Assembly (NCBI GenBank): GCA_004519485.1
Contig: CP038116.1
Coordinates: 248,001-312,000, forward strand
DNA: 64,000 nt
Source: Nannochloropsis oceanica
Lineage: Eukaryota; Sar; Eustigmatophyceae; Eustigmatales; Monodopsidaceae
Direction of reading: 5' to 3'
Below the pieces are notes generated by a model. The model was not told where the DNA came from. It was given only the letters and a program-made list of their open reading frames with translations, and made no database searches. Numbering within the stretch: the stretch's first letter is position 1; each line of letters begins with the position of its first letter. The position numbers and the translations under genes are program-made. Positions 35,725-43,395 of this stretch are shown piece after piece.

Positions 35725-37283
35725 ATGACGGCTTTGGCATCAGGCGAGCAGGAGACCTCCAGAAATGAGGACGAGCGCATTGGGGATCTGTTGACGCAGC
35801 GTGCGGGCCATACCACCCCCTGGTTCTCCTTTGAGTTCTACCCACCTAAGACCCCCGAGGGCGTCGAGAAGCTGTATGAGCGCTTGGCCAAGATGGCGCC
35901 TTACAATCCGCTGTTTGTGGACTTCACGTGGGGCGCCGGCGGTTCTACGGCGGAGTTGACGCTGGAGCTGACCATAGAGGCGAGGAGACGCTTTGGCTTG
36001 CTTGCCAACATGCATTTGACCTGCACCAACATGCCGACCGAGAAGGTCACAGAGGCTTTGGCTAAGGCGAAGGAGGCAGGAATAACGAACATCCTCGCGT
36101 TGCGTGGCGGTACGTATGATGTTCTTATGTGTAGGGGCGCTTTGGATGGGACCTTCGGCTGCGTATTCTCGATTCGTCCCTCTAACTTTCTTACACTTCT
36201 CTTTTTCAACGACAAAATAGTGTGACCATCCAGTGTAAAATACTAGTTACTTGCATGCTTCCATTTCTCACTCCGTCAACACACTCTCCCACCGCTTCTC
36301 ACCCCCTCATCCTATCCACGTATATCACAGACCCGCCTCTGGGTCAAGAACGGTGGGAGCCCGTGGAAGGCGGCTTCTGTTCAGCCCTGGACCTGGTCAC
36401 GTATATTCGCAAGAATTACGGCACGTTTTTCAGTGTTGGCGTGGCTGGGTACCCTGAGGGACACCCCAACCGGATTTCGCAAGTGGGGGGGCTGGAGGGC
36501 CTGAGCGAGGCGGAGCGGGGCAGGGTGGCGGTGGAGAGGGAGGAGGACGGGACAGTGACTGGCTTTTATGTGTGCAAAGACCAAGACTTTGCGCAGGAGA
36601 TTCAGTACTTGAAGCAGAAAGTGGAGGCGGGGGCTGACTTTGTGGTAGGTTGTCGATAAAACGGGCATGGGGGTTGAATTTGGGGGGTTGGGAAGGTGGA
36701 GGGGCTTAAACTTACATGTCTTACCAAACTGTTCGCGGTAACTTCTTTCGCTACATTTTTTTTTCGCCAATAATTCCGTCGCTTTTTCCCTTTCTTGCAG
36801 ATCACACAAATGTTCTTCGACTCGGAGGTGTACGTCGCTTTCGTCGAGGCCTGCCATGCCGCTGGCATCCACGTGCCGATTATTCCGGGTATCATGTGTG
36901 TTAACACTGTCGGGGGATTCAGGCGTATGGTTAGCTTTTGTCATACTCGTGTCCCTGACCAGCTGTGGAAAGAGATGATGTCCTTGCCTAAGGATGACGA
37001 GGAGGCGGTGAGGAAGTACGGCACCGCGTTTGGTGTGCGCTTGAGCCAGGAATTGCTATTGGCAGGTGCGAGCGGACTGCACTATTATTGCTTGAATCTG
37101 TCGAGGGTCGCGTTGGGGATTGTTACTGGTCTTGGATTGGGCCCGCAGAGTGCTGATACTCCCCCTCACAGAGTGGAAAAGGTCGATGAAAAGCCGATTA
37201 AGTCGCTTGTGAATGGTGCGGACAAGGAGGAGAAAGAGAAGGATTTGGACGGGGAGCTTGTGGGGGCGGTAGCAAGCAGTTAG
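35725..37283 (+). CDS. MTHFR: Methylenetetrahydrofolate reductase, short form (catalytic domain only)
   Basis: Three exons, 35725..36109, 36331..36644 and 36801..37283 (introns 221 and 156 bp), give 393 residues. Splicing restores ILALRGDPPLGQERW and EAGADFVITQMFFDSEVY, both hallmark MTHFR motifs. Also present are FSFEFYPPKTPEG, FVDFTWGAGGST, MHLTCTNM and IIPGIMCVNT. The enzyme reduces 5,10-methylene-THF to 5-methyl-THF with FAD for methionine synthesis. Animal, fungal and plant enzymes are ~590-650 residues with a C-terminal SAM-sensing domain. Here the barrel is followed only by a short Lys/Glu-rich tail and a stop, so the regulatory domain is absent, as in bacterial MetF. The ATG at 35725 gives a charged N-tail with no targeting signal, so it is probably cytosolic. 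Confidence 0.94.
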
Positions 37284-38294: not shown

Positions 38295-40591
38295 ATGCGC
38301 ACGTGTGCTCTTTTGTCCGCGGCGCTCTTAGCCACAGCGCAGCAAATGGGCGGCCTGGCCTTTGTGTTCAGGCCAACAAACCGATGCAGCATAAGAGTAA
38401 TACGTCAACTTGGGGTGAGTTACCATGTCCTCTAGTCCCACCCATCTTCCACCACTTCACGGTATACGTCTAAAAGGCCAGTCTGATCACCCTTGTCCTA
38501 TTTCATTATTATCCCACCATTTCACAGGGCCGGCAGTCGCTCGAACGGTCAAAATCAGTATCCTTCCCAGCGCCGCTTTGCGCCATATCCACGGCCTGTG
38601 GCAGCAGCAGCATCACCGCAGGCAGCAGCAGCGACGGTAGAGGAGGTCGCAGCAGTAGGAGTAGCCGTTTGGGTGGCGGCAGCAGTAAGATGCCCTTCAT
38701 GAGACCGCTGAACTCGGTGGTAGAAGGGCGAGGGGAGCGGATCAAGATGGCGCGAGGCGACGATGACAGAGACAGTGGAGCTGCTTCAGCAGCCCCCGTC
38801 GTGGTGGATGCAGTTCAGAATTCTGGTATAGTGCCAGCCACAGCCACAGTGGATAGCATCCTTAGACCACCGCCACCACCAGCGCCAGCAGCAGGGGATA
38901 AAGACGAGGACGGTGTGGTGGGCGCGGGAGGTGAGGGAGCACCTGACTTGTCGGCGGAGCTGGCACGGTTGGAGGAGTTGGGGCAGGATATATTCAAGAT
39001 GGCGGGACGGGAGTTTAAGATTACGTCGTATGTTGAGCTCTCGCGGGTGCTGTTTGAGGATTTGAGTCTTCCTGTGGTGAAGCAGCCGAGCAATAAGGTT
39101 TTGGGTGGGTATTACTCCACCTCGAATGCTGTGCTCAATGAGCTGTCTGCCATGGGGTACGAGCTCCCAGCCAAGGTACTGGATTATCGGGCGCTACTAT
39201 ATTTGATTCGTAGCAAGCAGGGGAAGAAGAAGAAGAAGAAGACAGCCGGGGAGAGGAAGGACTCTGCGGGGTCCGACAAGGACGTAGCAGGTGGAGGGGC
39301 GGGAGGTGTGGGGGGAGCGAAGGGGGAGCGAATGTCACCGGAGGAGAAGTTGATGATGAGTATGTTGAAAGAAGAGAGTGGTATCGATGCCTTGGATAGG
39401 ACGATGGTGCGAGTGGGTGTAGATATAAGCAAGGTGATGGAGAGGGTGCAGACGATGACTAATGGCGGGGGGCTACGGACTCCGGGAGGAGCGAGCACGG
39501 AGGAGAAGGACGAGACTTTCATCCCGGAAGAAGGAGGATTTGAAGAGCCTGATTTGGCGGAGCCAATCCCAATGTTGATGGGGACAGGGGAAGAGGATCT
39601 GGAGGGGGAGAAACCGATGTCATTGTATGACAAGGGGTGGGGAGTCGCGAATAATTTTGTGCTGATTGATGCCGCGAGCATCATTTATAGGACTTTTCAC
39701 GCAATGCCTAAGCTGACGGGGCCTGATGGAACGCCGATCAATGCTGTCCTTGGGTTTTGTAATGTCTTGAACAAGCTCTTACTCCCCGCCATGGTCCAGA
39801 GTCGCATCCGGCCCTATGTGCTCGTAGTCTTTGATGGCCACGTGCCCCTCCACCGACAAACCGCACTCTACCCCACCTATAAAGCCAATCGTGCTCGCAC
39901 CCCGGAAGACCTCATCTCCCAATTTCCTCTAGCCCAGGAAGCGGCAATTGCGTTTGGCGCCATCAATGTGACGGCGCCGGACGGATTGGAAGCTGATGAT
40001 GTCATTGCCACCTTTGCCCAAGTGGCAATTGAGCAGGTACCCGATATGAAAGTCACGATTGTGAGTTCAGATAAAGATTTTTTGCAGCTGGTAGGGGATG
40101 ATGTGAGTGTCTTCGATCCATTTAACATGGCGAGGTTGGGTCCGAATGAGGTCTTTGAGAAGTATGGGTTGGAGGCTGGGCAGCTGCTTGATTATTTCGC
40201 GATGGTGGGGGATGCGGCCGACAACGTGCCGGGCATCCCTGGGATAGGTCCTAAGACGGCTCAGGAGCTGTTGGAGGAGTTCGAGAGTTTCGAGGAGCTA
40301 TGGGAGTTCAAAGATGAGGTGGAATCGCCTAGGTTGAGGAAAATCGTGGAGGACAATGTGGAGAAGTTTTTGATGTCGCGACGTCTGATTCGATTGAAGA
40401 AATTGTTTGAGCCGCCGAGCATGACGTTGATGCCGAGAGCAAGGTTTTCGGAGGCGAAGATGCAGGCTTTCTGTGCCAAATACGGATTTAAGACGCTGGC
40501 GAGCCGGGTTACGAGTACACTGGCCAAGGCCGAGGCGGCGAAGGAGGCGGCGGCGGAGGAGGGGGGGGTCGGGAGGGGGTTCTTTTCGTAG
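38295..40591 (+). CDS. Organellar PolA-type 5'-3' exonuclease with an N-terminal DNA polymerase I thumb segment
   Basis: Exons 38295..38414 and 38528..40591 with a 113-bp GTGAGT...CAG intron (phase 0; predicted) give 727 residues. The ATG at 38295 directly follows an in-frame TAA. It begins a signal-like stretch (MRTCALLSAALLATAQQ), then GGLAFVFRPTNRCS, a plastid-type Phe transit start. Residues ~140-235 (LARLEELGQDIFKMAGREF, LSRVLFEDLSLP, YSTSNAVLNELSAMGYELP, VLDYRALLYLIRSKQGKK) align with the family A polymerase thumb that normally lies C-terminal to the nuclease in Pol I. After a Lys/Gly linker comes a complete 5' nuclease: VLIDAASIIYRTFHAMP, VVFDGHVPLHRQ, GLEADDVIATFA, VSSDKDFLQLV, and the helix-hairpin-helix GIPGIGPKTAQELL. 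No polymerase palm is present. The likely role is primer removal or repair in plastid or mitochondrion (inferred). Confidence 0.85.
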
Positions 40592-41771: not shown

Positions 41772-43395
41772 CTATTCTTCTCCACCACTACTTTCCTTCT
41801 TCCCTCCCCCCTCCTTCCTTTCCTTTTCCTCTTCCAACACCATCATCCCCCCTTTCCCCTCCGAAATCCTCCTCTTCGCCCTCAGATATGCTCCACACAA
41901 AATCAAAAAATCATAACTCGCATGCAACGCAATAGTAATTGTCAAGTCCCCATAGAGCAAGAAGATGCCCCCCATATATGCCCCTGAAAGGGTAATAAAA
42001 AGGACATCGGATGGCCCCATTTTGTGAGCTAAGCCAAACACGCCTGCTGCTATTCCAAGCCCTAAGTAAGGACCGAAAATCTGTGTGATATATTAGATAG
42101 TCGGAGGGACGGGAAATATTGTTCAACCTCGGCTGCTGCTGTTGCTGCTCTCCGGCCGTTCTGTTGTTGCTGCTCTCCTGCCGTTCCAATCGATCATTAC
42201 CCCTATCTACCTCGGACCCTGCCATGTGAGATAGACAGTCAATGCCCCACCCACCCCAAACATCGTGAACTAAAATCACTTACCTGAGCAATCCCCTGTT
42301 GAATCAATCCTCGAAAAAGCGCTTCTTCCCCAATGGCTGTCGCCAATGTGACGGCAGCAGCGAGGAGGAGGACAAGGCCGGCAGGGGTCTTGGTGCCGAA
42401 GATTGAGAGGGCATAAACCTCGCTAGCTGTGTCTTCTTGCAATCCTTGAAGCACTATAAATGTGGAATGTAAAATAAAAATAGAGCGGCATGGGTTAGGG
42501 CGGATTTGGACGAGGCTGGCCGTTTCTTGGTACCGATTTGAGAGGACCTAGAGCTCACTACTTGTGTCTTCTTGCACTCCTTGGAGTATTTAGGACACCA
42601 AGAAGGAGCAATACTGTGTCCAGTCAGCATACATTTCAGATGTCAAGCATTTCTTTCCACAGAATAGATGTATCCTTCACCCTTCGCCCCCCTTACTGCC
42701 TCCCCACATCTACCTACCAGCGTCGACTGCAAAAAGAGGGAGGGCTAGGAGAGCGCCGAGCGCGAACTGGGAAGGTTGGAGTGAAAGGGTCGCGAAGGGG
42801 AGGACGCTTATGAAGGAACCTACGAGTTGTCCTAAGGCTCCCAAACCTAAGGCCATAATGATGCTGAAAGCAATTAAAAGTTGATTAGGGCCTGGAGGGA
42901 GGAGGATGCGTTGCTGTGCGGAAAGGAGGAAGGCAGAGAATGAGGCGGTTAGACAAAGTGACTCACAAGCCAACAGAAAGAACGATTGAGTAAGTGGAAC
43001 TGTCGCACCCACCACCCATCAAGGAAACTTACTTTGCCCTTGGGCGTCTGGGTCACATAGGCGAACGGCACTGTGCTTTTCTCGTCTCCACCATAACCCT
43101 TGAGGCGTCGCTCTAAATCCTCCAGGGCATTTAACTTTAGCTGTTGCGGAGTATCTTGCTGCTGCTTCTTTGAACACAGCTTTGTGCTCTGAACGCCGCG
43201 TTGGGTGTTTGGGCAGGACGGCCATCTCGGGAAGAGGCTGGGCTGCGGCCCAAAGAAGGATTTGAGACCAGGCCTCACGGAGGACAGAGGCAGCGGTGGG
43301 CGAGCTTGGGTCGGCACAAATGCTTGCGTAGAGAGCGCTGTTAGATTGATGAAGAAGAACAGAAGTACAGGAAGGGGCACGAGGCGGACGGCCAT
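41772..43395 (-). CDS. Plastid CPBP (CAAX-type) intramembrane metalloprotease
   Basis: Four exons, 43395..43033, 42913..42718, 42453..42284 and 42080..41772 (introns 119, 264 and 203 bp), give 345 residues. The ATG at 43395 starts MAVRLVPLPVLLFFFINLTA with LSTQA|FVPTQARP, a signal peptide followed by Phe and a basic transit segment, as in complex plastids; an ATG at 43440 is an alternative. The membrane part has the family's catalytic set: AIGEEALFRGLIQQG (EExxxR), VFGLAHKMG (FxxxH) and ITIALHASYDFLI (HxxxD). CPBP (Rce1-like/SCO4-like) proteins are glutamate-dependent membrane proteases or bacteriocin-tolerance relatives; plant SCO4 acts in plastid development. A Glu/Lys/Gly-rich C-tail follows. 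Splices were chosen by frame continuity and motif recovery. Confidence 0.85.
42417..42590 (-). repeat. Partial copy of the exon 3 start inside a CPBP intron
   Basis: The start of exon 3 (~42417-42453) has a degenerate partner at ~42541-42590 within the preceding intron. Both read through a shared core with TGCAAGAAGACACA on the minus strand. The intronic copy is diverged and lacks a good acceptor. Confidence 0.6.

Follow-up and report, generated by a model that had tools for sequence, protein, structure and literature searches.

A gene predicted at 38295..40591 on the plus strand of a 64,000-nucleotide stretch of the Nannochloropsis oceanica genome (contig CP038116.1, positions 248,001 to 312,000, assembly GCA_004519485.1; hereafter the window) encodes a protein in which the thumb of DNA polymerase I (Pol I) stands in front of a Pol I-type 5'-3' exonuclease, and from which the polymerase core is absent. 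Judged from its sequence, the product is probably a flap endonuclease/5'-3' exonuclease that is encoded in the nucleus, targeted to the plastid and descended from a bacterial Pol I, most likely an alphaproteobacterial one. The nuclease itself is of a known kind, and the new part would be the front-mounted thumb. The coordinates of the gene in an earlier sequence-only reading of the window proved correct, the splice at 38414/38528 being predicted, and the gene divides as follows.

38295..38414, plus strand: exon 1 (residues 1-40), with the signal-peptide-like start MRTCALLSAALLATAQQMGGLA, followed after the putative cleavage point by FVFRP...
38415..38527, plus strand: predicted GT-AG intron of 113 bp, which keeps the frame between exons 1 and 2
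38528..40591, plus strand: exon 2 (residues 41-727 and stop), with thumb and nuclease in one unbroken frame
38942..39211, plus strand: Pol I thumb, comprising helices H, H1, H2 and the start of helix I (residues 179-268), ending just before the KLKSTY motif
39224..39241, plus strand: run of six lysines (residues 273-278) directly after the thumb, read from the sequence
39242..39640, plus strand: linker of low predicted confidence (residues 279-411; ten-residue mean predicted local distance difference test, pLDDT, 27-62)
39656..40549, plus strand: Pol I-type nuclease part

Thumb and nuclease of Pol I in reversed order

The sequence-only reading had matched the segment ahead of the nuclease to the Pol I thumb by eye, and had proposed a profile search and a structure prediction as checks. 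The Pfam family DNA_pol_A matched the segment above its curated cut-off (model positions 13-86 of 381; E 2.9e-11; 43.4 bits against 34.3), and an unfiltered search with a custom Pol I profile, built from 60 long Pol I proteins of prokaryotes (out of 89 available), aligned model positions 559-639 to residues 181-264. E. coli Klenow was matched by the isolated segment at E 1e-7, and the NCBIfam DNA polymerase I models gave two matching stretches, far below their whole-protein cut-offs. The structure model of the segment contains the four thumb helices, and six positions are invariant across 48 aligned thumbs, that of the window included (29-47% identity). The segment therefore carries both the sequence and the predicted four-helix fold of a family A polymerase thumb, and the assignment made by eye is borne out.

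Downstream of the DNA_pol_A match lie those to 5_3_exonuc_N (E 1.2e-42) and 5_3_exonuc (E 2.4e-21), and the custom profile aligns model positions 5-304 to residues 415-717. This part is a complete 5'-3' exonuclease domain of the Pol I type (PIN-like plus H3TH), in which eight acidic positions, presumably the metal ligands of the nuclease, are invariant in a nine-row alignment. It falls far short of the cut-offs for the eukaryotic/archaeal FEN1 (Rad2) type, scoring 20.3 bits with fen_arch (cut-off 351.95) and 16.3 bits with rad2 (cut-off 1204.4).

Neither Pfam nor the unfiltered Pol I profile matched a 3' exonuclease, palm or fingers anywhere in the protein, the profile aligning to the thumb and the nuclease alone. 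By these searches the protein is not a PolA: no palm and fingers with a polymerase active site and no 3'-5' exonuclease, active or inactive, were matched, and its nuclease does not lie ahead of the thumb. The absence of the palm and the position of the thumb before the nuclease, both claimed earlier, hold; the term "permuted" fits the relative order of thumb and nuclease but not a circular permutation, since the remaining Pol I domains (3' exonuclease, fingers and palm) have been lost. In the 168 loci examined from prokaryotes and viruses, 80 frames held both parts and none of these places the thumb first, and all 16 thumb rows listed from a search of alphaproteobacterial genomes lie downstream of the nuclease, so the reversed order is unusual among what was searchable. 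The top results of literature searches yielded no published Pol I thumb-nuclease fusion and no Nannochloropsis organellar exonuclease.

The linker was considered as a possible site of further Pol I remnants, and the unfiltered Pol I profile search found none there. It contains three weakly predicted short helices (39338-39460), a stretch in which no Pfam family was found at E up to 1; these helices may form a small binding element.

A presequence resembling those of plastid antenna proteins

Exons 1 and 2 join in frame into a product of 727 residues and a stop. The precise splice position is predicted, because the alternative acceptors 38477 and 38537 likewise preserve the frame. Exon 1 had been described as supplying a complex-plastid-type presequence, and a shuffle control together with a comparison with antenna precursors supports that description. 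When the upstream DNA was shuffled 300 times in two-base blocks, no spliced start arose in which a hydrophobic stretch leads into A, G or S and then F. Antenna-protein matches in the host genome number 36, and many are exon pieces; a start built like that of exon 1 (M, then R or K, a hydrophobic stretch and an A/F junction) is present in three of five light-harvesting-gene stretches, no start being visible in the other two. The cleavage point between A and F in exon 1 is our reading of the sequence, and the similarity to the plastid antenna precursors of the host is one of predicted targeting.

Two neighbouring frames have a resemblance by eye, one to the end of a methylenetetrahydrofolate reductase (plus strand, 36774-37283) and one to a CAAX-protease-like membrane protein (minus strand, about 41772-42547).

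Affinity of the nuclease with alphaproteobacterial Pol I

With the whole exon-2 protein as query, 130 of 142 Alphaproteobacteria genomes were matched, the best at 232 bits and 44% identity, and the nuclease alone again gave an alphaproteobacterial best of 232 bits. The nuclease query reached 160 bits in Bacillota (31/31 genomes matched) and 155.5 bits in Gemmatimonadota (21/21), and one Desulforhopalus genome gave 197.8 bits. Of the best 80 loci from at least 592 related stretches in genome_contigs, 71 are titled alphaproteobacterial (Micavibrio included), three "bacterium" or Proteobacteria and six other, a tally that is biased taken alone because five of the eight bacterial query rows were alphaproteobacterial. 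In a nuclease tree of 71 rows the window protein is sister to 39 rows, comprising 37 alphaproteobacterial ones, one "Proteobacteria" and one "Deltaproteobacteria" bin, and the approximately unbiased (AU) test did not reject a single clade of the window and Alphaproteobacteria (p 0.41), the sole placement put to it. The nuclease thus appears to have an affinity with alphaproteobacterial Pol I.

For the thumb, the best alphaproteobacterial match among those listed has 46% identity (E 1.1e-12). Once identical rows had been removed, the combination of loop lengths 5 and 13 was present in 64 of the 83 rows from Alphaproteobacteria, in the sole Micavibrio row and in none of 34 others; the second loop of the window thumb is 13 long, and the first is 6 as printed and 5 only when counted from the second glycine. 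AU tests rejected none of the alphaproteobacterial (p 0.66), Bacillota (p 0.79) and Gemmatimonadota (p 0.60) placements of the thumb. A joint thumb-plus-nuclease alignment was discarded for misplaced thumb rows. Two collections scanned with the whole protein returned no relative, using peptide patterns that fell mostly outside the conserved stretches.

An alphaproteobacterial origin has been described for the 5'-3' exonuclease/PolI proteins of green plants and red algae, and the PolI that red algae retain has both a nuclease and a polymerase domain and is plastid-localised in Cyanidioschyzon (PMC4166229). On this basis, descent from a red-algal-type PolI of this kind would be the simplest history.

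Family A polymerase and exonuclease loci in the host genome

The assembly comprises 29.3 Mb in 32 contigs; contig 32 carries a RuBisCO large-subunit gene (best PDB match 8bdb, E 1.6e-287) that we read as being of the red type. Outside the window, DNA_pol_A matches lie on contigs C5 (theta-like), C25 and C27. The thumb was not recently copied from these family A polymerases, since tblastn with the thumb against the three loci returned E 1.3 at best, and no second genomic copy of the thumb plus linker was found at E up to 10. The C25 and C27 loci (L016 and L017) hold intron-rich family A polymerase genes, nu-like and POP-like by eye, and the frames around their exons are rich in simple repeats reading SLPPS or GGREGG.

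The only other 5_3_exonuc_N match lies on C5, at a locus distinct from the polymerase there, so the family A polymerases of the host seem to be without a 5' nuclease, as judged by an exon-by-exon search that could miss pieces. This match marks a further 5'-3' exonuclease gene of the Pol I type, seemingly split by an intron (G000:C5:501907-502299; locus L010, 1051-1950, minus strand). No DNA_pol_A match is listed at its locus, and in the nuclease tree its product sits on a very long branch.

Proposed function and alternative explanations

After import, the protein would strip RNA primers and 5' flaps where the organelle polymerase meets the next Okazaki fragment, its nuclease acting in trans as the equivalent of the 5' nuclease inside bacterial Pol I. 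A plastid polymerase lacking a 5' nuclease of its own would need such a partner for primer and flap removal. The thumb, on a long flexible tether beside the poly-lysine run, would hold the duplex and keep the nuclease near the nick, the lysines and the thumb together forming an added hold. The likeliest, if speculative, route to this arrangement would be that a Pol I gene was partly duplicated or came to lie in tandem, and that the whole stretch separating one copy's thumb from the next copy's nuclease was then lost. More tentatively, the thumb, freed from the palm, may have been reused as the tethered DNA-holding module of a plastid flap nuclease, and the protein may found a polymerase-free, order-reversed class of Pol I derivatives that may span red-lineage complex plastids; we consider this broader proposal possible rather than probable.

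Several observations weigh against these interpretations. The four-helix model was built with a thumb alignment, and without thumb rows in the alignment the ten-residue mean pLDDT of the region is 37-72. At helix I, where the thumb is cut, LYLIRSKQGKKKKKK replaces the KLKSTY of bacterial thumbs. Among N579, S582, T609, R631 and K635, which we take to be the DNA-contact residues of the thumb (numbering via the Klenow alignment), three are retained (S582 as S207, T609 as T238 and R631 as R261) and two are lost (N579 to K204 and K635 to Y265). With its helix I lacking KLKSTY and only three of five contacts kept, the segment is not a complete DNA-binding thumb, and because of these losses its DNA binding may be weak. 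On the side of ancestry, the window nuclease sits on a long branch, and the Shimodaira-Hasegawa-like approximate likelihood ratio (SH-aLRT) support for its sister grouping is 94, below the 95 starred by the tool. The thumb tree (93 columns) has no resolution, its nearest rows by path being Bacillota, and the comparisons covered non-cyanobacterial prokaryotes, viruses and, among eukaryotes, the window's own genome.

These losses would fit an ordinary organellar 5'-3' exonuclease whose thumb is a folded but functionless leftover of an ancestral Pol I gene, an account that we find rather unlikely and that the host's second nuclease gene, with no DNA_pol_A match, would also favour. Plant OEX1 is likewise drawn without a thumb (PMC12164749), and the word "thumb" does not occur in the account of Plasmodium PfExo (PMC11260460). 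Against it stand the six invariant positions, kept at 29-47% identity, and the four modelled helices; a leftover would, moreover, be expected behind the nuclease and not in front of it. Retention of core positions alongside partial loss of the assumed contacts could instead point to a module that docks onto the organelle polymerase, or onto some other protein of replication, and not onto DNA, and the host's other family A polymerases, showing no 5' nuclease at their loci, would need coupling to one; S207, T238 and R261 are kept nonetheless, and we regard docking as quite improbable.

The site of action could also be the mitochondrion, or both organelles, if exon 1 were mispredicted or alternatively used. 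The nuclease is of the alphaproteobacterial type, as mitochondrial genes would have, more than one splice model is possible, and dual targeting has been predicted for several relatives in plants and red algae (PMC4166229); the signal-peptide-like stretch of exon 1 followed by the A/F junction, as in three plastid antenna precursors of the host, speaks for the plastid and makes this alternative unlikely. That two adjacent genes or an assembly join were read as one is scarcely credible. Thumb, linker and nuclease share the single 705-codon stop-free frame that contains exon 2, whereas no plus-strand frame exceeded 188 codons when 38474-40591 was shuffled base by base 500 times, and the G+C content of the linker by codon position (0.57/0.40/0.67 and 0.59/0.44/0.63) is similar to that of the nuclease blocks, that of the presequence block being unlike both.

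Comparison with known systems

A plastid-targeted flap nuclease bearing a Pol I thumb would have several close counterparts. Bacterial DNA polymerase I is homologous to both surviving parts, but in the window protein their order is reversed and the 3' exonuclease, palm and fingers are not found. CmPolI, the plastid PolI of red algae, for which roles in repair and primer removal have been proposed, resembles the window protein in being of the alphaproteobacterial Pol I type with a 5' nuclease, and its plastid localisation agrees with the targeting predicted for the window protein; it retains a polymerase domain, named after the nuclease, whereas the window protein has lost the core and places the thumb first (PMC4166229). 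Plant OEX1, which removes primers and flaps in plant mitochondria, consists as drawn of a targeting sequence, a PIN domain and H3TH, with no thumb mentioned, unlike the window protein (PMC12164749); nor is one mentioned for the other closest systems, OEX2 and plastid-localized exonuclease 1 (PLE1; PDB 9l55/9l56), or, in the available part of PMC12926913, for bacterial stand-alone FEN-like nucleases ("solo Exo5-3", E. coli Xni/ExoIX, M. smegmatis FenA).

PfExo, proposed for primer and flap removal in the apicoplast, resembles the window protein, given its predicted targeting, as a stand-alone exonuclease/FEN of a complex plastid. Its added segment, a low-complexity insertion within the nuclease where the window protein has a polymerase thumb before it, alters DNA binding and substrate range and thereby offers a precedent for an extra part with such effects (PMC11260460). 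A poly-lysine stretch is also mentioned for PfExo, immediately ahead of the conserved part of its nuclease (PMC11260460), comparable to the lysines at 39224-39241.

Primer and flap removal in complex plastids is little known, and a 2019 survey left open the site of ochrophyte POP action and the existence of unknown organellar polymerases (PMC6523293). The window protein is a direct candidate for primer removal in such a plastid, in a genus for which nuclear transformation has been reported (PMC7502441). If its thumb works, it would provide a compact test of thumb action without a palm, and would show that a subdomain of a polymerase can be separated from the rest and put to new use as a DNA clamp.
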